DNA from: Anadara kagoshimensis
Lineage: Eukaryota; Mollusca; Bivalvia; Arcoida; Arcidae
Length of the DNA: 64,000 nt
Assembly: GCA_021292105.1 (NCBI GenBank)
Contig: CM037874.1
Coordinates: 13,245,115 to 13,309,114 of the forward strand
Direction of reading: 5' to 3'
Positions 881 to 58,400 of the stretch are shown here, one piece after another; the stretch's first letter is position 1, and each line of letters begins with the position of its first letter. The notes beneath the pieces are model-generated. The model was not told where the DNA came from. It worked only from the letters and a program-made list of their open reading frames with translations, and searched no databases. Both the position numbers and the translations under genes were made by a program.

Positions 881-967
881 CCAATGGAAAACTGACTTGA
901 TCACACATTCCTAAAAGTTGTCCAAAACATATCAGTCTCTCTAGGCATGATATTGTACTGCTTCATT
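881..967 (-). CDS. PRODH: PRODH exon 12, with an apparent frame slip
   Basis: Acceptor with a long pyrimidine tract (tttttgttttatag), donor gtaagt. Joined to exon 11 it starts [14 protein letters not shown], but the conserved [18 protein letters not shown] lies in another frame, switching within GAGACTGATATG near 930-940. Two extra bases (or one fewer) would be needed. Either the assembly has an indel here, or a 3' splice site after tgcctag (at 942-943) is used with an unseen micro-exon, or the allele is broken. Intact splice sites and good conservation argue for a sequence error. Confidence 0.85.
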
Positions 968-3900
968 CTATAAAACAAAAACAATGACCAAGTAGAGTTA
1001 CTAATCAAATCTAGATGGTAATATTAGGAGTCATTACAGATTTTATGCAGGTTACGTTCCATACATGGTCCCATGTGCCCTGTAAATGATTTTTGTATTC
1101 TGAGCAGCAGGGAACAAAAATTACAGTCATTTTAAGTATCTCAACTTCATGATGGCTTGCCACCTCTCTCTCTCTCTCTCTGGTCTATATAACTTACTTC
1201 TCTACAGTAAATCTTACCCTATCTTCGTTATGACTAGCAACCATGACACTGGTTTGCTCTCTCTCTCTCTCTTCTCTCTCTCTCTGGTGTATATAACTTA
1301 CTTCTCTACAGTAAACCGTACAGTATCTTCATTATGACTAGCTCTCTCTCTCTCTCTATCTCTCTGGTGTATATAACTTACTTCTCTACAGTAAAACCGT
1401 ACAGTATCTTCATTATGACTAGCTCTCTCTCTCTCTCTCTCTGGTGTATATAACTTACTTCTCTACAGTAAACCGTACAGTATCTTCATTATGACTAGCC
1501 ACCATGACACTGATTCGTCCCCTTTCTCTCTGATTGATCTGTTTCATTACAAACTCTAAGACCTTATGATACATCTCTGAGGTAGCTTCATAAGTAGGAT
1601 TCACAGGGTCTTCATAACCAATGGTGACAGCTCTCTCACGCTCCTGTAAATTACAAATCAAGACAACAATATGATAAGTATACATTGAAAATAAAGATGA
1701 ATTCCTATTTTGATTTAATATTGATCAGCCATAAAATAAAATGTAAAATGACAGCTACTTGGGATCCCATGTCTACATGAAAAAAGTTTCATTAAAACCT
1801 GCTTTGTAGTTTTAAAGAGGTCAAAAATGTGGTAATAATGCACACAAACACAAACACACACAAATACATACACAGACATGTGCGTACTGCACTATGCCAT
1901 AGATAAGGTTGTATGACCTTTGATCAGGTGAGCTTACACCCTTTTTCACTGGCAGTTGACCAAGAAAAACCCTTTTTCACTTGGGGTCAAGTGCACAGTG
2001 GCAAGGGCTCTTGGAGTTTGAAGGCTAATGCCTTAACAACTAGGACTCTATAGCCCTCTTACTTCAGTATCAGTTATCAAATTAAATTTACAAATGCATT
2101 CATACTCTTGGACATTTGTAATGTCAATTTTAAGTCTCATAAACTGACTTGCAAATATTTGCAATTTTCAGGATTGAATTAGCATCATAAGAAAATTTGT
2201 GTTAAATGACATCACAAAACAATTTATTTTTGGTGTAACAGACAAAATCCTTTATTCCCTAACATTAAACAGTGGGGAATATTTTCTGCCAAATTTCTGC
2301 CTCTTCACCTATTGCTGATGACATCCCAGTGAGTGTTATATTCTTGACTGGAGTGTAAAACTCTAATCCGAAAATTACAACTTACCTGCTCCATATATGC
2401 ACCTCTCACTAACTTGGCACCAAAATGAAAGTTTTCCCTCCTAGCCAGATCCATATCTACACAGATTGTATCATAAGCACCCTAAAACAGAACAACTGTA
2501 TTTTGTACATTGTCATTAACATATCATGGGCTAAACTAAAATAGCTTGTATGCAAGTGGCTTGCAACTGTTTATTTTCATATCATGGGGTAAACTAAAAT
2601 AGCTTGTGTGCAAGTCACTTGCAACTGTTCTACCTTGTCCATCAAAATAGTTTGAAATCCTCGAAGCTATTTCTTCTGCATTTTTCCTTCAGTTTTAAAT
2701 AAAAGATTGTTGGTTTGTGCCAAAGCTGGGTGAGATAAGAATTTTGTCCTGAGGTAAGAATTTAACTCCAAATTGCTCCATTAAAACCCACTATTAAAAT
2801 ATGTGGCTTCCTACAGAAGTGCTCAGAGATAACCTTATAAGACAGAATTATGTACCATTCAAGTTAGAGTCTTAATGTATTCTGAATATGTATTGACTGT
2901 CAGTAAACTACAAAACCATTATATAAACACTGGCTTTGGCACAGTAAAGCATGTTCTCCTCATGTGCAGCCATTCATGACCATTTAAAAAGATTATTTAT
3001 TCCACAGGAAATGTAGGTATTTGGAAGTTTCTTAACTGTTATAGAAGCTGATTTGAGCTGACAATTATGTCGGTGTTCCAAATACGGAAGTGTTGGTTTC
3101 AGGAAGTTTTTATTTCTACTTTCTACTTTGCTCAGTCTGTTTCAGTCACTTAGTTGTAAGCGTCTTCTGTAGCTGCCACAGGTGGCCTACTCTTTTTCGA
3201 ACTCTACAGAGGTGTCTTTAGCATGCACTGAGACATGTGACCTCAGTTCTGAGTCTCATTCGAAAAACTACTGAGTAACAAGCTTTTTACAGCTCAACTA
3301 TTACATGATTTATATCAGGATAAATCTGTACAGACAATGTGGTTTAGGGAGGTTGTTGGTATTTTGAGGTGTCAGTTTTTGGACCTTATACTGTAAATAC
3401 CTTCAGATAACATTGATATGTGTTAAATAAGACAGGCGAATCTTTGTTAAACTTGCGCATCATTTCCATGGTAAGACGTCTAATGGCGGGTTGGAAATAT
3501 GTCTGCTCGGCATCTACCATAATCCTTACTCCTTTCTTCTGAGCATACTATTAATACAAAAAAAATTTTTAATGAAAATTATCAAGATATTACATACCAG
3601 TATATTACTATTTTGTAATAATTTAGAAATAAACAAGAGAACTTAAAATAAATGAGGTCTTATGTAATGGTAGGCAATCCTGTTGTATAATGCCATCAGC
3701 ACAATGCATAGGCAAAATATTTCTGCACCTTTGCCCATAGCTAGATTGTCTCAATATAAGTGAAATATTCTTGACTGGGATGTTAAACACCATTACTAAA
3801 CTCAAATCACTCACAACAGGGATATATACTAGTACATTATAGGAATGAAGTTTATAATAATTATCAGTTTTGTATCATAATGGAGTGAAGTAAATGAGTT

Positions 3901-6900
3901 TTAGGTCCCAGTAAAGATTCTTTCACTTAATTGAGGCAGACAACTATGGAGGATTCAGGAGTGGCTGGAGAAAACAGAGATCTTTGACAAGCAAACTGAC
4001 AAACTTTGTCAAAAAAGGATCGTCTGTTCCAAGTAAGATTCAAACCTAGATGATGAGAGGTGATGTGCAGGGATTAAGATTAACAGGGGCCCAGTAGCCA
4101 ATTGCTCCTAAAAATCAGTCTAGGGCCCCTAAATGTTTAAACATTTTAGTTAATTACTACTATTAAAACTTCTTTTTCTGAAGTGAGCTAGGCCCCTAAC
4201 TCAAAATAGTTAAGCTTCATCCCTGATGTGATTTGTATGCATGTGCTTCAGACCACATAAACATTCATATATTTCCTACCTCAGCTAGAGTATTTAGTCT
4301 ACGTAACATGTTCTTCATCTGCATTTCTTCATCATCTGTTAGTGATGTCATTAGTGGTTCAATAGATCCTGTCTGAAATAAAACCAATTTACAAAGACTG
4401 AGTCATGCGAATTTCAATATATCATTGATACAAGTAGCAATAAATTTACAAATAGGTAAGATGTTGGTTGAATGTTGTTCTACATGGCATCAGCAATTCT
4501 TAGCAATGACATAACTTTTTATTTATTAATCTTAACAATTAATCTAAATAAAGTCCATGCACATGAATCTGTGCAAATACTAGTATTTTATGGGGCGCTG
4601 TTTTACTATTTATTAACTATTTAGTGATATCAATAATTCGATTTTTGGATATCAATAATTCATTTATTGATATCCATAAATCGAATTATAGATATCACTA
4701 ATTCGATTTACTGATATCCAAAAATCAAATTATTGATATCAATAAATATTTATTGATATCATTAAATATTAATGGATATCAATAAATCGAATTATTGATA
4801 TCCATAAATGATTTATGGATATCACTAAAAAGTGAATAAATAGTAAAACGGCGCCCCACAGTATTTCAGATATGTTGTGTAATAGCGGTAATCTTAAGAG
4901 TGTCAGTAAACCCATCAATAATGCAGTAGATAAACATCACAGACCACTCAGTCCAATATTAAACTGTTACCAAGCCAACAAATCAAGGCCTGCAACAAGG
5001 AAACTCCTTTCTCAAAATTAGTCGACGAGGGCTGAAATCACAACAGTGATATGCCTATACACTTGTTCAGAAAACAAACATTACTGTTGATAGACTCAAT
5101 ATGTCAAAAGATATCATCATTTCATGGCGACTGTTCTTGTATTTGTGCAGAATTTGTAAATATTTACACTGGTATCAAGACAAGTCTTAAAGGCCTTATA
5201 ATAACTAAGTTAAATAATTTGTCTTAATATTTTGATGTTTATGAAATCATGAAATATATATGATCCATATGATCGAAAATATTCCAAAGATAAAATATAC
5301 TTCACTGCAACATGGCACAACTTTAGAAATCTTCCTTATGTGGTTCATCACTGTACTATGTGATCCCACGTTTGTGTTGGACATTTTGGAAAATGTTAAC
5401 TCCTAGAATAATGTCATTTTTAAGGAAAATCCGTAACTGGTATAGTTCTATATTCAATGGAAATAATTGTTTCACACAAACATTAGTGGTCTCACAAAGT
5501 ACAGCAGCCAACCCCATTAGACAAAATTTACCGTTATATTAGGAATAACAAACAACTTTGATAGACTTATGTTGACTTCTAGCAGATTATCCCAATCCAG
5601 CAGATCTACTTCACTGTAAAACAAAATACAGAATATAGAGTACAACTTAGAATGACTTATGTTGACTTCTAGCAGATTATCCCAATCCAGTAGATCTACT
5701 TCACTGTAAAATAAAATACAGAATACAGAGTACAACTTAGACAGACTTATGTTGACTTCTAGCAGATTATCCCAATCCAGTAGATCTACTTCACTGTAAA
5801 ATAAAATACAGAATATAGAGTACAACTTAGACAGACTTATGTTGACTTCTAGCAGATTATCCCAATCCAGCAGATCTACTTCACTGTAAAACAAAATACA
5901 GAATATAGAGTACAACTTAGAAAGACTTATGTTGACTTCTAGCAGATTACCCCAATCCAGCAGATCTACTTCACTGTAAAACAAAATACAGAATATAGAG
6001 TACAACTTAGAAAGACTTATGTTGACTTCTAGCAGATTATCCCAATCCAACAGATCTACTTCACTGTAAAACAAAATACAGAATATAGAGTACAATTTAG
6101 ACAGACTTATGTTGACTTCTAGCAGATTATCCCAATCCAGCAGATCTACTTCACTGTAAAACAAAATACAGAATATAGAGTACAACTTAGAAAGACTTAT
6201 GTTGACTTCTAGCAGATTATCCCAATCCAACAGATCTACTTCACTGTAAAACAAATTACAGAACTCTCAATACAATTATTACTTATGGTACTGTTATACA
6301 TACAACAAACAGAGGACGTTCTACGGTCAGTGGCTGCCAGCTGAACTAGCAAAGCTATATCAAAGATACAGCTGTATGGAAATGACTACATTTTCAGTCT
6401 CAGATTATGTTTCTTAATCATTATTATTAAAATAAAATATTGTTATTATATTATAACCAACTGTCGATGTTAACAGAAAATACCCAGAGAAAACTATACC
6501 TTTATTCAGTAGTAGTAGGCAAGTAGTTATCTTAGGCAAACAAAATTACCGTACTGATTCAATTTCAAAACTAGTGTGTATTCCAAAGATTGAAAACAAT
6601 TATTAAAACTTTACCCATCGCGAGATATATCCAATATGGAGAACCATTTATGGGAATCATCTTTACTTATAGGTATTCCCATTCCCTTTAACTTTGATCG
6701 GAAATGTTCTTCCTGGAATTTTCTCAGTAAAATATCACCTTCTTCTCCAGCAATGTTGTCAAAAAATCTCCTGATGGATACAAGTACATCGGACAGTTGT
6801 AGCTGAAAGTAACAATGTTGTTCTGTAAGTTTACTGAATTAAGCAGTTACATGTACATGTATCTTATTTTGGTGATTTCCGTAGTATAGTCGAACCTCTA

Positions 6901-9900
6901 TATAAAAGGGCCACCCACTTTTACAGGCCATTAAAATTTTATCCCAACTGTTCTTTTTTTAGTTATTTGAACCTGTATGCAAAGGTCACCTGTCCATAAA
7001 GGCTAGTTTTACAGGTTCCCTTGGGTTGCCTTTTTACACAGGTTTGACTAGAATGTTTAAGGTAATTTATGATCAGAAATGTTGTCAAACAATCTCCTGA
7101 TGGGTATGAGTAAATCAGATAGCTGTAGCTAAATTTAACAATGGTATTTTGTAAATTTAGTGGTTATCTTATTTTAGCATTTTTAACATTGAATGTTGGT
7201 GCTAAATCATGATCACTGCAATGAAAATTTTTCTGCATCAATAAATATAAGCAAACGAGCAACACTGTGACAGCTGAGTAGACACTTAATTATGATCTAA
7301 TGTTATTAGTAAAAACATAATTATAATTCCCTTAGATTATAATTATTTATAATTCTTATCAAGAATATAATTATTAAACATCATTTTATTACAGAAACTG
7401 CAAGTGACATTATGAAATACATAAACATACAGGTATACATAATATCATAATATCAAGTTAACTTTCTTGGATATTGGTTCAAGTTAAAAAAAGTGTGTTG
7501 ATTTATGATTAACATTGCACGGAAATTTGATTACCAGTAGGATGGATGAACAGATGTTGATTCTATCCTAAATACCCCTAAACTTCATTTAGAGGAGGGG
7601 GTTAATGATACAGATATACATGTACTTACTAACAGCTGGGGCCTGCCTAGAGCTGTCATCTTAATAGCTACAAAACCAGTCCCTTCTGTGGCACCTAAAA
7701 TAAATGGAATTATCATTATGTAAAAATTGATCCAAGTCCTATTAATAGTGACTTTTTGTTATAAAGGGCTTTATTTTACCATACATACTTGAAGATTGTA
7801 CTAAACTAGAACTGTCTCTTGAGACCAAAATACCCCCACCCCAACATCTACAAGGGTTTAATGTTTTCTGCAACCTTGACATTTGCAATATTGCCTTACA
7901 CACCTTTGGACCATGAAGATTATTCATTTGAAGTTTTATGACAGTCGTCCAAAGCAGTTATGAGATATGGCCCAGACACAATTTTACAAGGACAGATGGA
8001 TGAACAGACTGACAGACAAAAATGGTGATTCCTATATACCCCCCCCCCCACTCAAACTAGTTTGCAGGGGGTATAAAATTACTTCCAGTCTTTAATATCA
8101 TTATCTAAAAAGTCACACCAGTCAGATTTTACTGCATGTAAACATCAGATAGGGGCATTCCTAGACTTTATGAAAACTGACTCCTAATAAAGTCTCTGTG
8201 ACTGTAGAGCATTTATGAGAGATGTATAATACATGTAAATTCATTTTCAGGTCCAAGGCTTAACTTGAATTTTTTTATTCCTTGGTACAAAAAAATAGAG
8301 ACATGTGTTACATCAAGTATTGCATATAATTTAATTTCCTTTCTATCTTGAAGAGATATATTATCAACTTTTATCAGGGCCCTCAAAAAGTTTTATGGCT
8401 GGCATCACAGTATTTTTGATAAGTTTGATGTCTCTGTGTCCAGGATTGCCCTGGACATATTTGACACCCCATAGTTTCATGTTCCTTTCACTCAATTTTG
8501 ATTACACATGTGGCGGGTGATGCTTACCCTTCTGAAGCACCCAGCCTCACTTCCCTGGTGGAAGTTCCTGTGTTTAACCTAACTTGTCAGTTTAAAAGGT
8601 TTTACTTTGCTTCTGGATTGTGGTTCTGACATGGATTAGTATGTTTGTTTTTGATTTTATTATTAGCAGTTCCACAAAGGCTATATACAAAGGGGAACAA
8701 CTCTACCTTACTTAAATGTACTATACATATTTGTTTTTTTAATTGATAAAGCATGATACATATTTAAAGATTGTGGATTGTGATTTGGACATGGATTAGT
8801 ATGTTGGGTTTTTTTTTGGATTTTATTATTACCAGTTTCACACAGGCTATAAACAAGGGGAACAACTCTACCTAACTTAAATGTACTATACATATTTATT
8901 TGTTTTTTTTAATTGATAAAGCATGCTACATATTATAAATACAAATAGAATTTATAGATGTTTTATCTACTTCTATAATATACCATATGTTACCTGTATG
9001 ATACAGTATATAAATTTACACCTGCAAAATGTAATTTAATAAAACACTGAACAAATTGTTTTCTGTGTAGCACTAACAGAAATAAAATTTGTGTTTGATA
9101 TAATAATGTTCATGTGATGATACATGAATTAGGGGCAAGCACTTAGAAACAGTGTTGGGTGTAAGTCAAAATTTTCAACCAGTCCTTCATTGTTTAATCT
9201 AGGTTTTATTCAGAAGGGCCGTTTTAAAAAACTATCTTCTAAGACACCATAAAATCAATATTTTTCCATTCACATGTTTAATTTTTCCCACTAATGCCTT
9301 AACAATGTGGTCATTTGGAAAAATAAGGGATAAATGGTCCCATGGCCCCTTTTAGATAGAACACTGGTCCTTGTCTGACCATTCCAACATTTTTCTGTAT
9401 ATAGGAAACTATTGAAAAAGTAACCAGTCCTTCTTAACAAGTTAATTGGCCACCAAATGTTTAAGTTGTTACTTCATCAATATTTCAAACAATTTGAGTA
9501 AAATTAACAAATTTCTGTAAAACAAAAATGCACTACACAATGGGTAAATAACTGGCAATTTTTCAGTTTTCATAGTGGAATGGCCTTTTCCACTAATTTC
9601 AAGCATGTACTTTATAATGTATATATCTTAATTGATAAATGTATTTCACCTTTTTCTATTTCTTTTTGATTACGGTAAACATCACAAATGAAGAGATTAA
9701 ACCCTTTTTTCAGAAAAGATTAAATTGTACAACTTTTACCAACTGAAAGTTAGTTAATCTTATGCATGAAACTACCAGTATGTAGACAATATATATATCC
9801 CATTTATGTAACATTTCATATAATCAGGATATGTTACTATAGGCAAACAACAATGACCTGTCCGTTTGACCTTTAATTCAAATATTTATCGTGGATGAAC

Positions 9901-12900
9901 ACATTTATGTTTATGGATCACATGTGTTTATTTCGTCTACATAATGAGAAACTAACTATGCCCATTGTGTATACTAATTAACTGTGACTCCTAGCACTAC
10001 CTATGTAGCGGTTTGATCCTTCTATATGAATTTTCCTAATGAAAGGTCAAGCAGACAGGTCAATGTTGTTTCCTTATACATTATTGTAAACCATAAACCA
10101 TATTGTAATATCATGACCTAGGGGTTAATGTTATAATGACATTACATTCTAGTTGTTGCATGCTCTGTAAAGTTCAGTCATTTTTACAGCTTTATAAAGT
10201 TCAGTAATTTTTACGGTTCTGCACTGGTAATCAAGGTTGTCACATTTACTTTATAAAATCACTGTATTACCCAGTGGATGTACAGTGGTATTCCACATGA
10301 TCAACATGTGCTTGGGGCTTATTACTGCACATGTTCAATGAAATGTAAAGATTTTGGGGTCAACAAACTTATATGACAATTTGAATTTTGAGTATGTTTT
10401 AGTGCATAATGACTTAAAAGTATAACAGTACTTACACAAAATTTATTTTAAATTTCATGAAATGGGAATTAGATAACATGAATTGTGAAAGTTTTGATTA
10501 CATGATATTTAACAAACTAGGCCACAGTTTAAATTTTCCTTAACTTAGATTTTAGCAAACTTTGGTAATCTTTCCTTGGAACTATGAATAAATATTTTTG
10601 ACAAAACAAAATACAAATATGTTAAGCTAGAATTAAGTGATCTTCAAAAGGAAACCTAAAATTCCTGAATCTCTTAAATATAATATAGGTCTATCTTTTT
10701 ATTGCCGTTACTTTTGTAGACCTATGAAAAGCCTCCTAAACCAAAGATTTTGCTCAAATAACATGAGTACAGTAAAATCTTGTTATAGTGACCAGCAATA
10801 ACTTTGTCACTTTGTTAATGGCCACAGTATTTTGTTAAGTCCCAAAATCTATATCTTCTATTTTTTAAGTCTCTCTGGTCAAGATTCTTTCACTTATATT
10901 GAGGCAGTCAGTTAAGTTTAAGTTGAGGGAATCTTACTTCAAGAATGATTGTGAAACTCGGGCCAGGTGCTCTGGAAGGGTTATCATCTCTTGTCTAATA
11001 ACTAATTATTGTACCTGATACTGCATCAATACAATCCAGAAATATTTCTGTGTTCCGATCACAGTTAGCTTCATCTTCATAAAAATAAGTTCTAGCGGAG
11101 ACAACATTTTCTCTTCTATCCCCAAAGTCCTCATGTGCCATGAATCGTTTGTGGTTCGAACCTAAAATTATTTAATGAACAATGATTATTATGTATGATA
11201 TGGGTGTTTAAATATAACTGGTTTTGCTAATAAAGTCTGTAAACATTGACATGTGAAAACAAAAAACTTTGATTTCCATGTACAAGAAGTGCAGATTACC
11301 AACTGTATAAGAGAAAGTTATGGAATATTTTATTACACTAGCAATATTAATTTTCTATAAATATCAAGTTTCTGAAAAAAAATCATATCTATAGTGAAAT
11401 TTCTTTATGATGTCCATCTATAACTTAGACACCTTGCTTAATGCTGCAGTACATTTGTATTTTGAAGTCCCAAAGTTGATTTCTTTAATACTGTTCTCCT
11501 TAGATCTGTCACCAAACCCCTTTATAATGCTAAAATTTGTCCCCTTTATAATGCTAAAATCTGTCCCCTTTATAATGTCAAAATTTGTCCCCTTTATAAT
11601 GTCAAAATCTGTCTTAACAAACAGATGCAACAAATCAAGGTTTACTGCAGCCCTCAAAGTGGGTTTCAAAACTAAGTGGCCAGCTGGCCACCAATTTAAA
11701 TTTTCAGGTGGCCAATGGAAATTCCAAGTGGCCAAGTGTTCTTTTCTTCTAAATGAAGAAAAAGTAAGGCATGTTTTAGGTATGGAGAACGAAAATGCAC
11801 ATTTTTAAAACTGACTTACAATCACTTACATATATCAGTGTTATTAATAGCAATAATGATGATGTAAAGTGTCCATTATACCGTATTGCCTGAAATGGCA
11901 ACAGTATCATGAAAATTCTGTAACACAGAAATAATATATGTTCTCTGGTCACAAAAGTTCAAATTTCAGGTGGACAAGCTGGCCGCCAATTACAAATTTT
12001 AGGTCACCAGACACAATTCCTGGTCAATTTGGCCACCATTTTAGTAGACAAAATTGAAGGCTGTACTGTAAAAAACTTCATACAGGGTTTACAGAATCAG
12101 TATTTAATCATGTCAGTTTTAAAATATGCAGTTTCTTCAAAGAGTTACTGGTCAAATAACTAGTAATGTAATCAATGTTAGTTTTAATTTTTTTCCTAAG
12201 TTATCAGGGTTATTCAGGTCAAATAATTTTCCTTCCTTTACATGAAGCACCATGGGCAAAATAATACATTTTTTTAGTTATACAGGGACTAAATAAATAG
12301 TCTAAACAGCCAAATAATTTGGATGGCCAATGAATACACATGTGCAGTCAAACCTGTCTATAAAGGCCACCCAAAAAAGTGGCCTAAATGGGCAGGTGAC
12401 ATTTATATACAGGTTCAAATAACATGAATAAAGAACAATTTGGATACAATTCTACTGCCCTTTATAAGCAGGTGGTCCTTATACAGAGGTGACCTTTAAG
12501 GTAGGTTAGACTGTAATAACAAAATGGCATTTAGAGTTAGTACTGTTGCAAAGCTCTAATCATCCCAGTACTACTGTAGAAACCACTATGTGACAGTGAA
12601 ATACTCCTTATATTCATAGAAAATCAAATAAAATTGAATAAAGATTGATATTTTTCACTTACTTGCATCTAGGAAATCTGTATGCACATCCGCGATTGTC
12701 ATAAAGTATGACTGTAGAAAGGAAAATGTTGGCGCTATAGAAATTTAACATGGCGAAAATGGCGCAGTTTACACCAGAAGTGATGTCCTTGGTGACGTTT
12801 TACGTCATATGCGCAACAGGATCCGCCATTTGCCTGTTTTTCAACATGTTAAATCCCCATAGCGTCAAAGTTTTACCCTGTGTAGATATATCCTGGGCTA

Positions 12901-13376
12901 ATTGCGCATGCGCATACAGATTTCCTGTTACGACTAGGTACAAGTACGGTAAGTTTCACCACCTCAACCATTCTGAAACTGACTGCCTTGTTATAAGTGA
13001 AAGAATCTTGACTCTAGTGCATAAAACATTGTTGCTACAATCAATTTCTTTAACGACATATGGCACTAAGTTAATTACTAAAGGTCAAATTTCAAAATCA
13101 ATTGCACATTCACCAGGAACAATTTACTGATAAATCAAATATTTTAGGCTGTTGTATGTCAATTTTATTCTTCCTGTAAATGACATGTAATTATGTAATA
13201 GTTTCAGATGTTTGATCTCATATTAAGGTGCATTACATCTCAACTTTAGATGACGAATATAATTAATTTTTCAGCATAGTGCACTGTCAAGCACACAAAC
13301 GATTGATAGATTGATTGATTGATTAATTGATTGATTGATTGATTGATTGCCTGTGTGCATGATTGATTACAAGACC

Positions 13377-13415
<39 letters not shown>

Positions 13416-16400
13416 ACTCATTACAGATTGACCATTGATTCTTGGTCATCATTACACTAATCACTGTCACTTTTAGGGAGTATTTGAAAAAGGTTAACCT
13501 GCACTGAATTCAAAATCTAAAACATCATAATTAGTATTCTATTTCAGTTTTCTAAAAAAATATGTATATTTGCAATGACATTTACTGTATTCTGTTTTAT
13601 CAATATATCAACAGTCAATTATCACATCATAAATCCAGTTAAAAAAAAACACTTGTGTTATTTATTAAGAATTCATTGAATAACAGTAACTTAAAATATG
13701 CCATTCATGAATTGAAATTCAAAGTCCAATCCATAAATTTGAAATAAAAGATATTTTCTGAATTAGTTGGTCAAGCTTAAATTTGTCCCTAACATATTAT
13801 TTCAAATTCAATATGTAATTCAATGTAAATAGCTCTTTTGAATTTTTTGAAATGGTGACCCTAACATAATATCAAATCAAAAGTATATATGTATGTAAAT
13901 TTAAATAATTCAAATGTGAGAAAGCTAACATATTCATGTAAATAAGAACATAAATAAAATGTTGAATTTAAAACATGAAAAAGTCATGATACCGGTACTT
14001 CACAGTTCAGTGAAGCATTAACTAAAATGGTTTCATGTGACTGTAATATATCTCGCAATAAATTAACCATAAATCACAGTAATCTACCAGTATCTACTCT
14101 GGAAGGTATAAATATAACTGTTAAATTTTTAGGGTTTTTTATTCTTAGTATAAAGAAGCCATAATTAGGGCTTTGGTGCTCATCTGACTTATGCTGTAGA
14201 AGCCACTATTGGAAAAGTTTTAGTCAAGATTACCTACAGTCACAGTTCTAGTGTTATTAACAGTAGATTAACAGTAATTAGAATATAAAAAACATCCCTT
14301 AACATACAAAACAAGAATTGTGAGTGAAGCTGATTTATACCCCTATATCGGTTTTATCACTGGGTCATGGCCCTTGACCTATGTACCTAAATTTTGTATG
14401 TGACACATCATCTCATGCTGGTTTACATTTGTGCCAAGTTTATCAAAATCCATCCACAGACATGGATGATATACAGCAAAAATATTTTTTGGATGGACAA
14501 CCAGATGGACAAACAGGCAAGGCATTTCTAATATATCCCTGAAAGCATTGTTGTTGTTGAAGTTGGGGTACAAAAAATGTATAATTGACCTGTTTAAGTT
14601 TAATAACGTCAATAAAATCACAAACTTTAACACTCTCATGTGTACATATAATTAGAAATCACCTGTGCAGCAGGCCACACCAATTCAAAATAAACCAGTA
14701 CATTAGTATTATAGTATTTTTTTAGTTAATGTTTACTTCATGTCTTTCCTTACCCACCCTGAAGCTGACACAAATTGAAAGCTTAAAACAATTGTTGAAG
14801 TCACTAAAAACAACTTTCTCAAGGGTGACAGTAAAAGAAAGGGCATATATGCACACCCATTCCAGACTGTAAAACAAAGGGCATATATGCACACCCATTC
14901 CAGACTGTAAAACAAAGGGCATATATGCACACCCATTCCAGACTGTAAAACAAAGGGCATATATGCACACCCATTCCAGACTGTAAAACAAAGGGCATAT
15001 ATGCACACCCATTCCAGTCAATCTTAAGATAGCAGATAGGAAAAAATTAAGAGTCCATGTACCAGGTATACCGTAACTCAATGTTGTTTCCACAAATGCA
15101 GCCCAAGAAAAAAATTAAGAATTCTTTGTAAGAATTGCCCTAGATATATTTGACGTCCCATAGTTCCATGTTCCTTTTACACAATTTTGATTCCTCACGT
15201 GGGTGGTGTAGCTAGCTAAACAGGAGGTGCTTACCATTTCTGAGCACCTGGCCTCACTTCCCTGGTGGAAGTTCACGTGTTTAACCTAACTTGTCAGTTC
15301 CAAAGTGTTTATTTTGCTTCTGGATTGTGATTCGGACATGGATTAGTATGTTTGTTTTTGATTCTGGATTATGATTTGGACATGGATTAGTATATTTCTT
15401 TTTGACTTCTGAATTGTGATTCGGACATGGATTAGTATGTTTGTTTTTGACTTCTGGATTGTGATTCGGACATGGATTAGTATGTGTGTTTTTTATTTTA
15501 TTTTGATTTTAACATAAATGGGTTTCTTGTATTTTGATTTTTCACAAATAAGTTTTTCCATGGAAATATATGAGCACTGCATCGATTATAAAATATCACA
15601 AAAAAGAAATCATATTATTTAGTGAAAGCATAGATCAATCCAAAACAAAATACAAAGCAAAATAAGATCAACTTATTGTGTTATACAAGTTCAGTGCATA
15701 GTAACCTGATCCTGAAATGTATCCTATATTGATAAATAATGAAAATAAGAATATATATTATAATTAGGAGATAACTGTCTTGTAATTTTCAATTTCCAGA
15801 CGTATATCAGTGGTTATACTGTCGCAAATTAGTTTTATTAGCGACAAATCAGCGGAGCATGAAAATTAACATTTGATGCAAATATTTGTTTACAAATCAC
15901 ATTTTATCCTGCAATAAAAAGAATCCTACACCACTAACAGTGTAATATTTTCAATGTCAGGAAAATATTCATTCTCCTTTGAAATATCTTTGTGCAAGAT
16001 GGTTTGGTACCGAATGTGCACATGCAAGTACCCGGAAAATATGAAGCAGTATATTGTGGTTTTACTGACATCAGCCAATGAAAACGGGTGTTACATACAG
16101 AATGAATTAGAATTTTTGTTATAATATGCACTGACAAGTGATTTTTAAATAAATTGATTTCTGATTATACTTATTGACCATATTTCTTTATTCCAAATAC
16201 TGGCACCACACTTATAACTATTTTATAGAGTGTCACCTGGCAAGGTCTCCTCATCTTCATCAAAACCACAAGCATACCATGTGATGCCCCATATATTTCT
16301 TTTGGATATGGAAACACATAGATTTTCATTTTGGAGAATAAATGATGCTATACTGGGAATATGTCATAGCATGTTATTAATTTGTTTGGAAAAATGAAAA

Positions 16401-22720: not shown

Positions 22721-23449
22721 ATGGCGGTTCCGTATTCGAAGGAAGCCGATTTAGTCGAAGAATACTTCTCAGCAGCTCACGAGATAAATTCACTTGTTCA
22801 TTATGCGCGTGTACAAGCACACGAAGCCGATCTGAAAGCTAAACACGCAATGACTCTAGCCAAGAGAGCAGCTTCTGAGGCCGAATCTGCCCAAGAAATA
22901 GCTGAAAGTTTAGCCAGCACATCAAATGCTATTGCAAGGATGGCTTATGAATTTGCTAATCAAAGTCCCCGAAGATTTAGTGGATCCAAAAAGGTTCCAA
23001 GGCAATCAGCCGATAGTGATTATACTGCGGAGGAATTTGACACGGACAAATCAAAACCTTTATTTGGAAACAAATACGACATGGAATCAAATTCTGCTGT
23101 TTTTAATTCACCAGTTTCGCCAAACGAAAACTCACCAAAATATACAGAATCATTTCCGCTTCCGGATATCGAAGATGGAAAAGATCTCCCGAAGGAATTC
23201 GACAGTTCACACTCGCTTCCAATAATCATGGAGAATGCATATCAAGGCCCAAGAGAGAGCAAACCAACACCGTGGTCGGAAAAGAAATCACTGAGGAAAA
23301 TTCAAAGAAAGTTAAAAGGCATGGAAATAGAAGGAAGCTCAGATGAAGCTCTTAAGGACACAAAATCGCAGAGCGAACAGTTGTTACAATCTGTCAGGAT
23401 AAGTGCTCTTCCTGAGCAAAACCATTCTTCGAGCGAAGGTAATGACTAG
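22721..23449 (+). CDS. Intronless 242-aa protein of unknown function
   Basis: One uninterrupted frame from ATG 22721 (context AAAATATGGCGG, YY1-like) to TAG. Residues about 5-80 are Ala/Glu/Lys-rich and strongly helical (EADLVEEYFSAAHEINSLVH, then KAKHAMTLAKRAASEAESAQ), probably a coiled coil. Residues 85-190 are polar, Ser/Pro/Asp-rich and likely disordered. A basic patch follows (WSEKKSLRKIQRKLKGMEIE), then a Ser/Gln-rich end. No signal peptide or membrane segment. Support: length, composition unlike the surrounding AT-rich DNA, CRE promoter, AATAAA near 23740. I do not recognise the family. It is divergent to PRODH, about 1.9 kb apart. Confidence 0.75.
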   Translation: MAVPYSKEADLVEEYFSAAHEINSLVHYARVQAHEADLKAKHAMTLAKRAASEAESAQEIAESLASTSNAIARMAYEFANQSPRRFSGSKKVPRQSADSDYTAEEFDTDKSKPLFGNKYDMESNSAVFNSPVSPNENSPKYTESFPLPDIEDGKDLPKEFDSSHSLPIIMENAYQGPRESKPTPWSEKKSLRKIQRKLKGMEIEGSSDEALKDTKSQSEQLLQSVRISALPEQNHSSSEGND

Positions 23450-44400: not shown

Positions 44401-44795
44401 CTGGACATGGATTGGTATGTTTGTTTTTACTTTGCTTTAAGATTGTGATTTGTACATGGATTGGTATGTTTGTTTTTACTTTGCTTTGGGGTTATGATTT
44501 GGACATGGATTGGTATGTTTGTTTTTACTTTGCTTTAAGATTGTGATTTGTACATGGATTGGTATGTTTGTTTTTACTTTGCTTTGGGGTTATGATTTAG
44601 ACATGGATTGTTGTTTCTACTTTGCTTTGGGATTGTGAACTGGACATGGATTGGTATATTTGTTTTTACTTTGCTTTAAGATTGTGATTTGTACATGGAT
44701 TGGTATGTTTGTTTTACTTTGCTTTGGGGTTGTGATTTGGACATGGATTAGTATGTTTGTTTTTACTTTTCTTTAGGAATGGGATCGAACATGGA
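26448..44795 (+). repeat. 49-bp satellite, about 370 monomers (18.3 kb)
   Basis: Head-to-tail monomers of 49 bp: TTGTGATTTGTACATGGATT, GGTATGTTTGTTTTTACTTT, GCTTTAGGA. Three main variants alternate: (a) GATTGTGATTTGTACATGG, (b) GGTTATGATTTGGACATGG, (c) GGATTGTGAACTGGACATGG, giving higher-order units of about 13 monomers and a long repeat of 64. Because three monomers make 147 bp with few stops on the plus strand, many 60-130-codon frames (period 49 residues) appear; they are artefacts of the repeat. Homopolymer-length differences are far commoner to the right of about 32.2 kb. Confidence 0.98.
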
Positions 44796-44799
44796 TGTT

Positions 44800-46303: not shown

Positions 46304-46338
<35 letters not shown>

Positions 46339-46372: not shown

Positions 46373-46410
46373 ATAGAATGTATTTATTGTTACAGTACAG
46401 GCCTGGCGGA

Positions 46411-47332: not shown

Positions 47333-47344
47333 TTACCGTGTCGT
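47333..47344 (-). CDS. C-type lectin exon 5 (last four codons and stop)
   Basis: Acceptor gattttcag followed by ACG ACA CGG TAA, completing ...EKYTPTTR. The rest of the exon would be 3' UTR. Support is the good acceptor and matching phase; an ending by read-through of exon 4 is the alternative. Confidence 0.5.
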   Translation of the reverse strand, partial: TTR

Positions 47345-50300
47345 CTGAAAATCATAGAAAATAAATAGGTACTAGTAAATAAATGGTATATCTATCAATA
47401 AACATTCTAAGCGCTCATATAATACCTACATATTATATACACGTTGTGTATATAATATTTTATTTAACATTTCCAATGAGGTTATTTAAAATAATAAAAA
47501 CCAAAACTTTATGTGGAAAAATACATTTTACCACAGAAAACCGCGGGACTATGTTACGACATATTTTCTGTAGTATTGACGTAATTCTTTACATTTGACA
47601 AATCGGAGATTCCCCAATGACGTCACAATGAGAAGTCCGACTAAAAGTGCACGTGTACTTTACCGCCAATGTTTTATCTAACATTAGACTAGTTTTTCTG
47701 TCTGATTTGACAAAATACAAGTTTTATGGAACACGTATGATACAGGATCTTGTATCACCACACTGTGTGGTGATACAACATTGGCGGTAAAGAACACGTG
47801 CACTTATCATTGGGAAATCATTACTACAGAACATGTCATAACATAGTTCAGTGTTTTTTTATGGTTCATTTGTTTCCCAATTAGTACGCTATGATAAAGC
47901 TTGTTTTAATAATACGAGAACTATATACGTCGAAGCAAGCTGCTTACAAATAAATTATTGAGCAGGGATATCGTAAGTCTAGCCTTATCAACACTCGAAA
48001 ACTTTTATGGTCGTCATCACAATATTATTGATAAGAACGATATTTCTGTATCCAAAATGACCTTGAATATTTTCAATTTTAATTTTACACGTGATGGGTA
48101 CAGCTAGATAAACAGGAAATGTTTACCTTTCCGGAATACCTGATTTCACTTCTCTTGTGGCGGCTCACGTGTTTCACTTAATTTGATAAAAAAATTAAAG
48201 TGTTTACTCTGGTTTGGAATTGGGATTTCGACCAAGATCGGTATGTTTGTTTTTTATTTCATATTGAAACAATATTGATTCTAACAAGAAATATATGACA
48301 TGGGTATTGTTACTCCATGTCATTGGTCTTTGCTTTTTACAAGTATCTTTGCTTAATTTAACTGTAAACTAACTGATACTGTCAGTCGAACCCGATATTT
48401 TCTCCTCGCCCTGTATCATTCCGTACCGGACACATATTTACAGCATGTTACTCTTTTATCCTACGAACTATTCCACAGTTTTCAAAATCCTTATCCAGTT
48501 TATTTTCCTTTAAGTATTGTCATAGGAATCTAGCAGCCTTTACGTTGGCTTTCATTGTCTCGTTTTAAAACAACATCTTCAGGATATCGTTTACAAGTAT
48601 TTACGTTGGCCATTTTGGTTGACAATGACGTTAGCGACAGGAGACGCGCCGATCACCCTCCCGATATGAGCCTCACAAACACAGTATTTGTGCACGTGTG
48701 GCTAATTACGGAATGATATGGGTTCGTCATGTGATTGATTTTAGCCAATCACTTTCATAGAATTAAGTCAGAGGTAGCGTAATGTATTATACAGAATGTA
48801 TTTACTAACCGGCGTGTACTTTTCACAAATAAAGAGACGCCTTGTACTGCAATCGTCATCATCCCACTTGAAGTCAAATTGTCGATATAACCCCAAACAG
48901 TCTTGCCTGTCTTCAAAGTTGTTTGGCTGGCCTGGATTCCAATCAGTAAAACTAAGATCAAACTTCCCCGCCCCACTATACACCCACCTGCCTTCCTCAG
49001 ATTCATCTGTCCCGTCTATCCAGAAATTATTAGTTGCTGTCAAAATAATTTTTAACAATTTTATGTATGCATCAATATATAACAGAAATATTATGTTTCA
49101 AATAGAATAAAATCAAAAACGAACATACTAATCCATGTCCGAATCAAATTCCAGAAGCAAAGTAAAAACTTTGGAACTGAAAAGTTAGGTTAGTCAAGTG
49201 AACTTTCACCAGGGAAGTGAGGTCGGGTGCTCCGAAAGGGTAAGCACCTCCTGTTTAGCTAGCTACATCCGCCACATGTGTAATCAAAACTGTGAAAGGA
49301 ACATGAAACTATGGGATGTCAAATACATCTATGACAACCCTGAACACAGAGACATCAAAATTATCAATAATACCGTTCATTAAACATAAAATTATACACC
49401 CATGAAGAACAAACCAAGAATTTGAACACACGCAACGGGTATAGCTAGCTAAACAGAATGTTTTTATCCTTGCGGAGCACCCGGTCTCACTTCACTGAGC
49501 TAACCTAAATTGGCACTTTTGAAGTTCATATTTTGATTAGGGATTGTAATTTGAATATGAATTGGTATGTTTAGTTCTTTATCATAGATCAGATTAAGTG
49601 ATACAATATTGCTTCATTTAATTTTTACAAAACATTCCGATGATAAATGTAATTAAAACATTTGAAAAGGGCATGACCATCTTTTACGACGTATTAAAAA
49701 ATTAAACAATTTGAAAATAATTGTTTATTTTGATACAACAGTTATAAGCATTAAACAGTCTTTTATTTAAGATAAAGGCATTAGTGTTTAGAAAGTAAAA
49801 CATTAGCCAAAATGCGTACATTTATAACTTTTTGATAAGCGAAGTTAAGTTTTTTTCTTTCAAATTGTCATTTGTCGAAGCTGTTTGACAAAAGTGAGGA
49901 CCTCAATATTTCTATTATCAACTTTTCTTTTCTATGCAACAATATATCTGCTTCTCATGCTTATGGTGTATTTGTTTCACAATTAATACGCTATTGTAGA
50001 GCTTGTTCTCACTACAGGAACTTTATACATCGAAGCAAGCTGCTTACAACTAAATTGTTGACATAATGATATTGCAAATCTAGACTTATCAAAACCCTCA
50101 AAAAGTTTTATGGCCGTCATCACAATATTGTGATAAATTCATAAAAAACATACCGATCCATACATTCCATGAATTCGTATGACAGTTTGGAAACGTGCTG
50201 TTTTTTACATTGATCATACTTATAATTGACAGAACGTGCCCGCATTTTTTTCCTGTATTTTAACATTTATCATACTTACAGTTGACAGAACGTGCCCGCA

Positions 50301-53300
50301 TTTTTGCTGTATTTTACATTTATCATACTTATAATTGACAGAACGTGTCCGCATTTTTTCCTGTATTTTAACATTTATCATACTTACAGTTGACAGAACG
50401 TGTCCGCATTTTTGCTGTATTTTACATTTATCATACTTATAGTTGACAGAACGTGCCCGCATTTCTGCTGTATTTTACATTTATCATACTTACAGTTGAC
50501 AAAACGTGTCCGCATTTTTGCTGTATTTTACATTTATCATACTTATAGTTGACAGAACGTGCCCGCATTTTTGCTGTATTTTACATTTATCATACTTACA
50601 GTTGACAGAACGTGACCGCATTTTGTTGTATTTTACATTTATCATACTTACAGTTGACAGAACGTGCCCGTATTTTTGCTGTATTTTTACATTTATCATA
50701 CTTGCAGTTGACAGAACGTGCCCGTATTTTTGCTGTATTTTTACACTTATGATACTTACAGTTGACAGAATGTGCCCGCTCTTTTGCTGTATTTTTACAT
50801 TTACATACTTACATACTTACAATGGGGTTCGCCGCTGTACCACGTGATCAATACCTCTTAACATTTGTGCGGAACATTTTGGAAAACGTCAACGTCACAA
50901 ATTCCCGGAATAACGTTGTTTTTACGGGAAAACGTCATATTGTGCGATTCCATGTCCATTAGAAACAAGCGTTTCGCAGACACGTTAGAGGGTATCATGT
51001 GGTACAGCGGCGAACCCCATTGACAGAACGTGCCTGCATTTTTGCAGTATTTATATATTTATAATACTTACAGTTGACAGAACGTGCCCGCATTTGTTCC
51101 TGTATTTTAACTTTTATCACACTTGCAGTTGACAGAATGTGTCCGCATTTTCGCTGTATTTATACATTTATCATACTTACAGTTGACAGATCGTGCCCGC
51201 ATTTTTTGCTGTATTTTACATTTATGATACTTACAGTTGACAGATCGTGCCCGCATTTTTGCTGTATTTTTATATTTTTTTTTTTATATTTTTTTTATTT
51301 TTGTAAAGCAAACATGAAATATCATAGTTCTACATAATTGTTATATACAATCATAATACAATATATACAATATACAGATTTTCTGCATGGTTATCCAATA
51401 CATGTCAATAGTGAAAAAAAATTAAATTAGAACACTGTAAATATATTTCCAAAACCTATCAAAAATTTCCAATTTTCCCAAATTGCTTAATCTTATTCTT
51501 TCTAATGCTATATTATAGTTCAATTTTGTTTTTAAACTGTTAAAATTTAATTTGCTATCATTTGATCTGGCGTTTATATATAATTTCTTACTAGGATAAA
51601 TATGAAGTTTAAAGGTTTTAATTTTTCCGAAATGTAAGGGTTACCGAAAATAGCCGTTTTAGGATTTTATTTCTAAATTTATTCCATTATTTTCAAATAA
51701 ATTTTCTAATTTCTCCCAAAGATTATAAACATGTTGACACTCCCAAAACAAATGTACTATATTTTCCGCAAATGTGTTACAAAATTTACATTTATCATCT
51801 GTTCTTATTCCATTTTTTTTTCAGATAACTATTTGTTGCTAAAATGTTATTATTTATTCTATACTGAAACCATTGGAGATAAGTATTTTTGGTTGTATAA
51901 AAAGGTATACTATTGTAAATTTTCCATTCTTTATCTCCAATGTTAAACTCTAATTTCCATTTTATTTCACTTGTCTGTATTTTGTTTGTCTTAATTAAAC
52001 ATAAGTACATGTCTTTAGCGCCTTTTTTAGATTTAAAAATTATTTTTAAGTGAAACGGTATAAACGGGTTTATTGTTTTAATGTTGTTGGGGTGTATCTT
52101 AAGTGTTTTTATATACTCTTTAATTGAATTTATAAGACTTTTATACTCTAGAAAATTTGTTTTGATGTTGTATTTTAGTTTAAAAAAGTTTCATAATTCA
52201 GTAATTTGTTGGTTTTCATCTATTAAATCTTTTATGAAAACGATATTATTTTTCAAATATTCTTTATAAAGTATTGTTTCATTGTTTATTTTTATATTTA
52301 TATTACACCATATGCACGAAGATTCAATGTCGTTCCAGTTTTGAGGACTGATTTTTATTTGTAAAATAGACCATGCTTCCAAAACATCTTTCCAAAATGT
52401 ATTTTTAATATTATGTATTTTCTTATTTAAATATTCCACTCCCATAGTGGCAATGTCATTACTTTGAAAATTAAAACTTCTAGATAACCTTAAACATTTA
52501 GAATCACTTTGTAAGAGTCTTCGTATCCAGGTCATTTTTAAGGCTTTGATGAAAGATGTAAGATCGATCATTTTTAACCCTCCCTTCTGATAATTTTGAA
52601 TTATTATATCTCTTTTGATTCTGTCAATTTTATTGTTCCAGATAAAGTCATGAAATAGAGTGTTTAATTTATATATTAACTCATTTGTAGGATTAGGTAA
52701 ACTTATGAATAAGTGATTGAATTTTGAAATAACAAGCGATTTTATTAAAGTAATTTTACCGAGTGGTGTCAAACTTCTCGTTTTCCATATTTGAATTAAT
52801 TTTTCTGCTTGTTTAACTTTTCCATCATAGTTTAAAGATATCATTTTATCTAAATCTACATGAAATTTTATTCCTAATAAGGTAAAAGTATGTCCCCACT
52901 CTAGCTTTAATCGATGATTAAATGTTTCTCCAGAAAATTTTTGCAACCTATCCAAACTGTTTTACATTTATTTATATTGGTATTCAATCCAGAAATTTTG
53001 GCAAAGAAATTTAAAGTTTTTAAAGATTCATCTATAGATTTATAAGACCCATCTAAAAAAGATGTGTCATCAGCAAATTGTGAAATTTTAAATTCTTCTT
53101 TATTTATTGTAATACCTTTGATTTCTTTATTATTTTTTATCATAATACTTAGTATTTCGGCACATATTAAAAAAAGGTAACTTGAAATTGGGTCCCCTTG
53201 TCTCACTCCCCTGCCTACCGCAAAAAATTCTGAGACAATGTTGTTTTGCACTACTGCAGAAGAAATGTTTGTATATAAGATTTTTTCCATCTTTTAATAG

Positions 53301-55368
53301 ACTCCCCAAAATTGAAAAAATCAAGAACCTCGAATAAAAAATCCCACGATACCGAATCATATGCTTTTTGAAAATCAATCAAATATAACATACCAGGTAT
53401 GTTATGGTTTTCAGTATATGTCATTATATCAGCGATTAGCCTAATATTTTCAGCTATGTGTCTACCACTTAAAAAACCAGTTTGGTCCTCTGATATTATT
53501 TTATTTAAGACAGATTTAAAACGTTCTGCTATACAACCAGAAGCTATTTTATATACAACATTTAATAAAGTGATCGGTCTCCAGTTTTGTAAATATTCTC
53601 TCGGCTTATCTCCTTTGGGTATACACATAATAATTCCTTGTTTCTGAGTTATAGACAATTCCCCCTTTATGTAACCTTCATTTATTGACCTTAGTACATA
53701 TATTCCCAAATCTTTCCAAAAAATTTAAAAAATTCTACCGTAAACCCATCAGACCCCGGACTCTTGTTATTTTTCATTTTCTTTAATACAGACAATACTT
53801 CATTATTACTTATTTCTCCCTCCAGTTTTAAATTATCAGTTTGGTTTAGTTTATTTATATCTATCAGTTTAAATTCATTTTTTAAATCTATTTTTTCTGT
53901 CTTTTTTTCTTCATAGAGATTTGCATAAAATGATTTAACTTCATTAAGAATTTCTTTTTGATTAGTTATTTCGTTTCCACTTTTATCTATTAGTCTACTA
54001 ATCGTTTTATTTTCGAAATTATGATTTTCCAAATTAAGAAAGTATTTATTTGGTTTTTCCCCTTCCTCGATCCACTGCACTCTTGATCTTATTATAGTAC
54101 CTTTTAATTTTTCATTTCTAACGGTTTCCAAATTTTCTTTTAAATCCTGCAACACCGATAGGTCTTCTTGGTTTAAATTATTTTTATTTTCTAACTTAAT
54201 ATTTGATTTTTTAAATTAGTTTCTACTTTATTTTTTTCCTTTTTAGTGAAAGATGAGTGTGCAATACATTTTCCTCGGATTTCCATTAAAAGTGTTTCTA
54301 GGAATAGTTGGTCAGATATTGTAAACTGTATATTATCTATATTATTTAAATTATCTAAGTTATATAAAGGTACCATGTATTGTTTAACAGTATCTTTATA
54401 CATCGTTTAATTTTATTAATGAACACCTGATCGCGTAATAAGTTGGCGTTAAATTTCCAAAGGCCCCTACCCTTAACAAAATTATTTGGCTTAAGAGACA
54501 AGATTACCATAGAATGATCCGACCTATAGCTGGGTTCAATTTGAACTTTACATACTTGATTAAATATACTGTCACTTATTAGAAAAAAGTCCAATCGAGA
54601 TTGTTTAAGAGGTTTACTTCTTCTCCATGTATACCTTTTTAAATTAGGATACAGTTTTCTAAAAGGATCAGTCAAATTGTACGTATCTTTAATTTCCAAA
54701 ACCTTTTTCCTAGCCCTTGGGTTATTTATATTTTTATATTTATCCATATCAAGATCAGGTTCTTGTATCAAATTAAAATCTCCACATATAATATTTGTTG
54801 TGCAACTAAGTGTTTCTATATGTCTAACTAATTTTGTATAAAAATCAGGTGAATCATTATTAGGGCCATATAAATTCAGTAAATTAAACCTGAAATTATT
54901 CATTTCTACATCTAATATTAAAAAATTACCATCGGTATCTGTTATTTCTTTATGTATTTTAACATCTGAACCCTTTTGAAAAAGAATACAAACACCCCTA
55001 GCGTTTGATGTATATGCGGAAAAAAAGCTTTTACCATCCCATTGACTTTTTACTGTATTTTCAATTGCATTCGAAAAATGTACATCTTGTAAGCAATAAA
55101 TATGACAATTCATATCTTTAAGGTAACTAAAAACATCGTGCCGTTTCTTAAAATCGGATAAACCTCTACAATTATAAGACAATATTCTAATTACAGTGTC
55201 AAACGTTTTATCATCGCTTTTATCTACACTCATGATTTAAATGATATAATAACAATGCGTTGTAATATATAACAAAAACTTATACATATTCTACATGCAG
55301 TATGAAAGATAACTTATTTACAAAAATACAACTACGTATTTGACTATTCATGTTTGCTTGCATTATGC

Positions 55369-55436
<68 letters not shown>

Positions 55437-58400
55437 TGGAAGTGGAAGAATTGTATTAACAATAAGGTGTTGCTAATACAGGCGCCTTTCCCTAGAATAA
55501 CGGGATACATTAAGTATTTGATAGTGTGCTTATATACAAGTAAAATATCTATACTAACAAAATCATGTCATTTCGGCCGCAAGGATAACATAACAAAGGG
55601 TAAATCAGTGAATACTTGATACAAGTATTACAGTAAGTATTACTTATTATATAACCTATTATGATATACTCGTACTTCAAGAAAACAATAAATGTATACA
55701 TATACCTATATACATACACTTGTGTGCGCGAGTGTATGTGTGTGAGTGCGCGTATGTGTATGTGTCGCGCATTTCGGGCCGATATTACTCTATCCTTTTT
55801 TGTGTAGTACTATCTTTTGTATGTGCAAATTTTGAATATTTACAAAATAGTACAAAAGTAGCACATAACAATTATGATAGATAAATTGATATTTGTATAT
55901 GAAGAGGAAAAACAATATTAAAAAAACCGCAACGTACATGTGCGCGCGTATTTCGGGCCGATATTACTCTATCCTTTTTGTGTAGTACTATCTTTTGTAT
56001 GTGCAAATTTTGAAATTTACAAAATAGAACAAAAGTAGCACATAACAATTATGATAGATAAATTGATATTTGTAGATGAAGAGGGGAAAAAACAATATTA
56101 AAAAACCGCAACGTACATGTGCGCGCGTATTTCGGGCCGATATTACTCTATCTACTATCTTTTGTATGTGCAAATTTTGAATATTTACAAAATAGTACAA
56201 AAGTAGCACATAACAATTATGATAGATAAATTGATATTTGTATATGAAGAGGAAGAAAAAAAAAACAATATTAAAAAACCGCAACGTACATGTGCTTTTA
56301 TATTTTGTATTTTTATATTTATCATACTTACAGTTGACAGAACATGCCCGCAGTTTTGCTGTATTTTTACATTTATCATACTTACAGTTGACAGAACGTG
56401 CCCGCATTTTTGCTGTAATTTTACATTTATGATACTTACAGTTGACAGAATGTGTCCGCATTTTTGCTGTATTTTTCCATTTATCATACTTACAGTTGAC
56501 AGAACGTGCCCGCATTTTTTCCTGTATTTTAACATTTATCATACTTACAGTTGACAGAACATGCCCGCAGTTTTGCTGTATTTTTACATTGATGATACTT
56601 ACAGTTGACAGAATGTGTCCGCATGTTTGCTGTATTTTTACATTTATCATACTTACAGTTGACAGAACGTGACCGCTCTTTTGCTGTATTTTTACATTTA
56701 TGATACTTGCAGTTGACAGAACGTGACCGCTCTTTTGCTGTATTTTTACATTTATGATACTTGCAGTTGACAGAATGTGTCCGCATTTTTGCTGTATTTT
56801 TACATTTGTCATACTTACAGTTGACAGAACGTTACCGCTGTTTTGCTGTATTTTTACATTTATCATACTTACAGTTGACAGAACGTGACCGCATTGTTGT
56901 TGTATTTTTACATTTATCATACTTACAGTTGACAGAACGTGACCGCTCTTATGATGTATTTTTCCATTTATCATACTTACAGTTGACAAAACGTGACCGC
57001 ATTTTTGCTGTTTTTTTCCATTTATCATACTTACAGTTGACAGAACGTACCCGCTCTTTTGCTGTATTTTTACATTTATTATACTTACAGTTAACAGAAC
57101 GTGACCGCTCTTTTGCTGTATTTTTACATTTATCATACTTACAATTGACAGAACGTGTCCGCATTTTTGCTGTATTTTTACATTTTTCATACTTACAGTT
57201 GACAGAACAAGCCTGCATTGTTGCTGTATTTTTCCATTTATCATACTTACAGTTGGCAGAACAAGCCTGCATTTTTGCTGTATTTTTACATTTATCATAC
57301 TTACAGTTGACAGAATGTGTCCGCATTTTGTTGTATTTTACATTTATTATACTTACAGTTGACAAAACATGATCGCATTTTTGCTGTATTTTTACATTTA
57401 TCATACTTACAGTTGACAGAACGTGCCCGCATTTTTAGGTACTCATTCTCATGTCTACTGTTTATTCTCACAAGAGACCCACCAGTAGCTTTACATAAAT
57501 CCTGAAAATAATAAAGTATGGAATATGTTGTCTACAAAACTAGCATCAGTGTGATAAATACAGAATCGGAATTATCGTAATATGTTATCTTGTCCAAGCA
57601 TTTTCTCGTTGTTATGTGTAAATCAGCTTAATGCTTAATGACTTTGTGCTGTGCCAAAATTCTAACTTTGTCCGATATACAGTATAACCTGCTATAGAGG
57701 CCACCTCTATATAAAGTCCGCCTGTCTATAGCAACCGGTCTGAAGTATCCCCAATGGATTTTACTATATAATGACCCTGTATATAAAGTACACCTGTCTA
57801 ATGTGAATAGTGTCCACCCTTTTCAGTCCCAAATGACTTCTCAACCTGTCTATAAAGTCCACTTTTTCAATCAACTTTTTAAGTCTTTAGATTTTTATAA
57901 TTTCTTAAAATTTGTGCAAAAATCAACTTTATTCTTACATTCTTAATGCATGAAGATAAGAAATATATATTTATTATTATTACAAATCTGACAAGTTTTA
58001 AAATTTTCCATTGTAAAGAGTATAGTTTTGAGTTATAATAAGTAAAATTTAAAAAAAAATTTAAAGTTATTATTTTCATGTCATTGACTGAAGCCATTTA
58101 ACCAGAAGGTAGAAATAGCCTTTGTTATCTACAGGTAAGTATGTTTTCTATATATATATTATCTTAATTAGTGACACCCTGCTTCTTAAGAAACCAAAGA
58201 CAATAAGTCAAAGTGTATACCAATACAGTAACCATGTAATCAGATGATTAAATATACTTTTCAAATATTTTCTATAATTAACTCTGAAAAGTCAATAAAA
58301 AACTTTTTATGAAAAAACTATAATGAAAATCATTTATTAACAAATTTAAGAAAATACATGTTTGTAGTATCTAAATATGTACTACATATGTTTCACTGAT

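Follow-up and report, generated by a model that had tools for sequence, protein, structure and literature searches.

Exon edges copied together with their splice sites in two genes of a mollusc: probable minisatellites of the mirage kind and a test of border preference

Gene Models and General Annotation

The window, that is, the whole stretch of 64,000 nucleotides that was analysed, carries two genes on the minus strand and one reading frame between them.

20782..881, minus strand: PRODH (proline dehydrogenase) gene, 12 exons within the window, continuing past the window end
22721-23449, plus strand: uncharacterised open reading frame of 242 codons between the PRODH and lectin genes
62134..48810, minus strand: C-type lectin gene, four exons found

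In the gene models, PRODH exons 1-11 and lectin exons 1-4 were joined in frame with GT-AG borders on the minus strand. The Pfam search assigned the products to Pro_dh (E = 1.6e-40) and Lectin_C (E = 5.4e-20), respectively, and returned no match at E = 0.001 for the reading frame at 22721. No RNA family was found in the window at the gathering threshold. The start and end of PRODH exon 12 (881-967) lie in different frames; the frame changes close to four consecutive T, through either a base-calling or sequence error or a real lesion. A candidate small PRODH exon at 12711-12663 was dropped because exons 3 and 4 join in frame without it. This decision was also aided by known PRODH sequences.

Tandem repeats filled 66 TRF rows in the window. 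An 18-kb satellite (26446-44796) consists of approximately 378 copies of a 49-bp unit, which also occurs singly or in short arrays at other sites of the window. A common repeat of the window had no exact match in viral_contigs or genome_contigs, two sets from which records of the same genome may be absent.

Exon-Edge Duplications in the PRODH Gene

The following features of the PRODH gene were evaluated.

5532..5613, minus strand: exon 7, functional copy, with in-frame joins to exons 6 and 8
5552..6263, minus strand: 90-bp array of eight copies without interruption of the reading frame, each with the acceptor and approximately 62 nt of exon 7
1459..1643, minus strand: exon 11, functional copy (gene model)
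1179..1516, minus strand: 81-bp array of the exon 11 3' edge with the donor GTAAGT, four donors in all
6615..6802, minus strand: exon 6 (gene model)
7075..7154, minus strand: copy, diverged in sequence, of the acceptor edge of exon 6 (coordinates of the ungapped alignment segment)
14827..15017, minus strand: 38-bp array in intron 3, a proposed fifth case

The unit of the exon 7 array comprises approximately 28 nt of the intron end with the AG acceptor, followed by the exon part. The spacing is exactly 90 bp, and TTTTACAG followed directly by TGAAG occurs in each copy, so that the acceptor is kept in 8/8. The functional acceptor is the last of the eight, and the rest of the exon and the donor follow this last copy alone. 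The PRODH frame is open in all copies, which contain no indel: the period of 90 (30 codons) is divisible by three, and the unit is free of stops. Among the differences in the exon-derived part, 6/8 were synonymous, whereas 27.5% were expected (P = 0.007), and the proportion in the seven upstream copies was 4/6 (P = 0.047). This bias departs from the prediction of pure neutrality and counts against a reading of the array as a passive minisatellite. Some variants were common to non-adjacent copies. Two explanations can be given: older variants may have been present in the functional copy first and been copied from there, or splicing may at times use the upstream acceptors, with the repeats being translated. 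The first is preferred. In-frame PRODH isoforms generated from the array are possible in view of its reading frame and the synonymous bias.

In exon 11, the functional donor GTAAGTTATAT is followed by three more copies downstream, and the units are separated by (CT)n tracts. In an ungapped comparison with the last 41 nt of the exon, one copy matched at 41/41 positions and the most distal one at 36/41, and another scored low because of an extra base. The most distal copy includes more of the exon and has diverged more; this suggests that an older, larger duplication came first and that an inner 81-bp unit was expanded later.

The acceptor edge of exon 6 has a single copy starting at 7154, 326 bp upstream in the transcript, and hence represents a spaced pair, not an array. 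Its local alignment score was 57, whereas the maximum in 300 first-order Markov resamples was 21.5. Centred on the border, 46/60 positions were identical, and the copy passed two of the four settings of the border self-match test described below. The copy is old.

The 38-bp array holds the acceptor-like TTTTACAG. An exon part was not found when it was compared with exons 3 and 4 and their 30-nt flanks, the best ungapped 20-mer matching at 12/20 positions; the suggestion of the preliminary description that this array may be a fifth case was therefore dropped. A 58-bp repeat of two copies (2520-2629) lies 39 bp from the exon 10 acceptor.

The Lectin Exon 3 Array

57411..57501, minus strand: lectin exon 3, joined in frame to exon 4 inside the Lectin_C domain
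56306..57436, minus strand: 54-bp array, block 1, 21 copies of the exon 3 3' edge with the donor
51020..51277, minus strand: 54-bp array, block 2, 4 copies
50196..50813, minus strand: 54-bp array, block 3, 11 copies

In total, the array has 36 copies of the 54-bp unit, each with approximately 26 nt of exon plus the donor, and the first copy is the functional edge of exon 3. This edge is identical across 54 nt to the copy at 56395. The donor GTAAGT is present in 28/36 copies and lost in 8/36. Its conservation was unremarkable, since 10 of 49 6-mers scored higher. In the exon-derived part, 5/23 differences were synonymous, as compared with 26% expected (P = 0.75), and one difference creates a stop. 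The copies show a neutral-looking drift as non-coding DNA without codon constraint. A reading of the array as a coding repeat was rejected: the first two copies are open, after which the frame changes and stops appear.

Two stretches interrupt the array between its blocks, one an insertion with inverted ends and the other carrying broken reading frames of a non-LTR retrotransposon. The former, approximately 200 bp long (50816-51025), splits the edge array; its local alignment scores with stretches near 60470 and 5330 were 73 and 55, respectively, values obtained without a control. The latter occupies 51300-55240 of the lectin intron between the array blocks, and its reading frames contain a reverse transcriptase-like FADD motif. 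Since the blocks are split by these insertions, the array is probably older than they are. Elsewhere in the gene, a 46-bp unit in approximately eight identical copies (61085-61458) stops 23 bp short of the exon 2 acceptor and stays outside the exon.

Placement of the Repeats Relative to Exon Borders

The preliminary description had reported four separate duplications of an exon edge with its splice site in two unrelated genes, and these were confirmed as three arrays and the exon 6 pair; as copied sequence they are certainly beyond chance. They involve two acceptors and two donors, and how far the unit ends are from the splice site varies from case to case; hence, the breakpoints showed no fixed position with respect to the splice site. 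The accompanying statement that a whole exon is never duplicated mostly follows from unit size with no special cause needed: the 54- and 81-bp units are shorter than their own exons (91 and 185 nt), so a whole exon cannot fit, and the 90-bp unit alone is long enough for its exon (82 nt).

Two kinds of count were used to explore whether borders attract repeats. In the position test, the 60 bp centred on each of 30 borders were searched for copies on the same strand at distances of 8 to 3000 bp; the main threshold was an identity of 75% or more, and 30,258 intron and 1,239 exon-interior positions served as the comparison. Matches were found at 4/30 borders and at 15.5% of intron, 4.4% of exon-interior and 61% of intergenic positions, the last of which contain the 18-kb satellite. 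Matched random intron draws gave a mean of 4.09 (P = 0.60), and circular shifts gave a mean of 3.99 (P = 0.575). Under three other settings, 3 or 4 of the 30 borders matched (P = 0.67-0.82). Within the window, borders were not enriched over intron positions in local repeats. The proposal that splice sites, R-loops or template switching seed the duplications was thus not established: within the window, the test put forward in the preliminary description gave a match rate at borders no higher than at intron positions, the outcome named there as a refutation.

The position test weights long arrays heavily. In the founder count, every array entered once, represented by its founding unit, and the three blocks of the lectin gene together made up a single array. 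The count covered arrays within the two gene spans and left out TRF arrays of period <20, the low-complexity array of period 23 at 51256-51302 and the two-copy exon 6 case; a strict set of 12 arrays also excluded those at 53826, 54174 and 58306. Three straddling arrays were found among 15, against 0.94 expected (P = 0.070). The expectation was 0.73 when at least 8 nt were required on each side of the border (P = 0.037), 0.87 in the strict set (P = 0.059) and 0.67 in a gene-matched simulation (P = 0.025). Straddling arrays therefore occurred at approximately 3 to 4.5 times the random expectation, a weak excess in two genes of a window that had been raised because of these very cases, with founder-level cut-offs set after the cases had been seen. 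Selection, if anything, should lower the number of border events, and the excess runs in the opposite direction. Moreover, 5/12 arrays lay ≤40 bp from a border versus 1.30 expected under random placement of single units, a test whose P = 0.007 is too kind because the distances were taken from whole arrays and the simulation from single units. With full lengths, 2/9 non-straddling arrays lay ≤40 bp from a border versus 0.44 expected (P = 0.062). The founder-level numbers lean weakly toward a border effect; a preference for borders is not established by the window.

A rule that the periods of border arrays are multiples of three was also considered and rejected. It applied to 3/3 border arrays versus 3/9 others, which is too few, and a 157-bp unit in amphioxus breaks it.

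Origin of the Exon-Edge Duplications

What can be read directly in the window is how the copies are ordered, that splice signals are retained in them, that the exon-derived part of the lectin array drifts in a neutral-looking way and that the exon-proximal site gives an in-frame join. We consider it probable that the arrays are mirage-type minisatellites, ordinary in their birth, which are tolerated at borders since the exon-proximal splice site stays usable. A short tandem duplication would span an exon border by chance, by way of slippage, template switching or unequal exchange. Such a duplication would leave the exon unharmed together with its reading frame and a proper splice site, and the extra edge would end up in the intron. 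Its tolerance would follow from continued splicing at the copy that adjoins the intact exon, so that the exon-proximal site would be the one in use. A duplication inside an exon would mostly break the frame or the protein and be lost; edge duplications would thus be the natural surviving class near exons, and their placement would mainly reflect random births filtered by selection against in-exon duplications. The array would then grow and homogenise as minisatellites do, and the surplus exon edges would drift as part of the intron. Several observations support this reading. Reading frames and domains are continuous when the proximal sites are joined, and local repeats are abundant in the introns of both genes, where the 15.5% of positions noted above have a 60-bp copy within 3 kb, a rate that borders do not exceed. 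The lectin copies change without codon constraint, and some have lost GTAAGT. Turnover is indicated by the lectin copy identical to the functional edge, the exon 11 copy with 41/41 matches and the exon 7 variants common to non-adjacent copies.

Alternatively, exon borders may be a mutational hotspot at which structures formed during transcription, or template switching, initiate tandem duplications close to splice sites. The three straddling arrays against 0.67-0.94 expected (P = 0.025-0.07) would fit this process, as would the arrays within 40 bp of a border (5/12, measured against single units; 2/9 of the non-straddling ones, at full length) and the involvement of both donors and acceptors, as in amphioxus. 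However, no excess appeared in the position test (4/30 borders), the unit ends vary in their distance from the splice site, and the window and cut-offs were chosen post hoc for two genes only. A hotspot is hence regarded as unlikely. A broader claim, which we likewise rate as unlikely, is that borders are a true duplication hotspot in certain animal lineages, this one and amphioxus among them, by a process linked to splicing or transcription; it would have made the exon 7 ladder of eight near-identical in-frame acceptor units and, possibly, extra 30-residue PRODH units.

The exon 7 array itself might be partly coding, in which case upstream acceptors would be used and PRODH isoforms would carry one to seven extra 30-residue units. 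The period of 30 codons, the eight copies open in one frame without an indel, the retention of TTTTACAG in every copy and the synonymous bias (6/8 overall and 4/6 upstream) are all in keeping with translation. The open frame adds little to this, because a single open unit suffices to keep eight near-identical copies open. Furthermore, the variants may have gone through the functional copy before copying, the events are few, and a metabolic enzyme would have to grow by up to 210 residues. Translated repeats are accordingly judged very improbable. An assembly artefact or a dead gene copy, to which the two frames of PRODH exon 12 near the run of four T might point, is hardly credible given array copies that bear different substitutions, insertions that split the lectin array, and PRODH exons 1-11 that are open with GT-AG borders.

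Comparison With Known Systems

The accessible parts of the published accounts describe similar structures in amphioxus under the name of mirages, which are minisatellite-like tandem duplications over an intron/exon boundary in Adh3 and the globin genes BflGb6 and BflGb9 (PMC3087553). According to this source, they occur at 5' and 3' edges, include part of the exon and carry splice signals in many, not all, copies; the units measure 10-72 bp in Adh3, 150-160 bp in BflGb6 and 157 bp in BflGb9, and BflGb6 haplotypes have 6 and 3 copies (PMC3087553). For lancelet PGBD5, repeats of 60 and 108 bp over splice sites are reported and troponin C (TnC) is cited (PMC3902484). The available portions of both papers describe mirages from cephalochordates and propose them as a source of new introns (PMC3087553, PMC3902484). 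No intron gain by tandem duplication was found here: the arrays adjoin existing borders, and the exons join in frame without a new intron.

Related repeats have been described in other animals. In human genes within segmental duplications, minisatellites at exon-intron boundaries, which may change splicing, were found by comparing recent paralogues with transcripts, as far as the accessible text goes (PMC2812944). The present arrays likewise lie at exon borders and were found at two loci from genomic sequence. In Drosophila, the part of the report available describes tandem duplications with a splice signal inside an exon that make a new intron (PMC2891723). The duplications here similarly carry a splice signal, whereas it is an existing intron border that was copied. 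An intronic minisatellite is known from abalone, in an account whose accessible part does not give its placement at an exon border (PMC6905558). No report of a mirage in a mollusc was present among the literature matches listed, a search largely outside subscription papers.

The exon-edge arrays thus appear, from their sequence, to be mirages, a known kind of structure, in an apparently different lineage from amphioxus. Four edge duplications in two mollusc genes would make mirages more general in repeat-rich animal genomes, and mollusc mirages would permit exon borders to be tested cleanly across a whole genome, to see whether they draw duplications in or merely tolerate them. The present cases differ from those of amphioxus in that other genes and apparently another animal group are involved, known here from one sequence alone. 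The lectin intron array, with 36 copies, exceeds the BflGb6 haplotypes in copy number, and the exon 7 array, unlike amphioxus mirages, is fully open in frame. As in amphioxus, the unit spans the exon-intron boundary in the exon 7, exon 11 and lectin exon 3 arrays, and the splice signal is kept in many, not all, lectin copies (28/36) and in all of those of exon 7 (8/8). A further likeness is homogenisation within the arrays, where distant copies are identical or nearly so, as read from the copies without a formal test.
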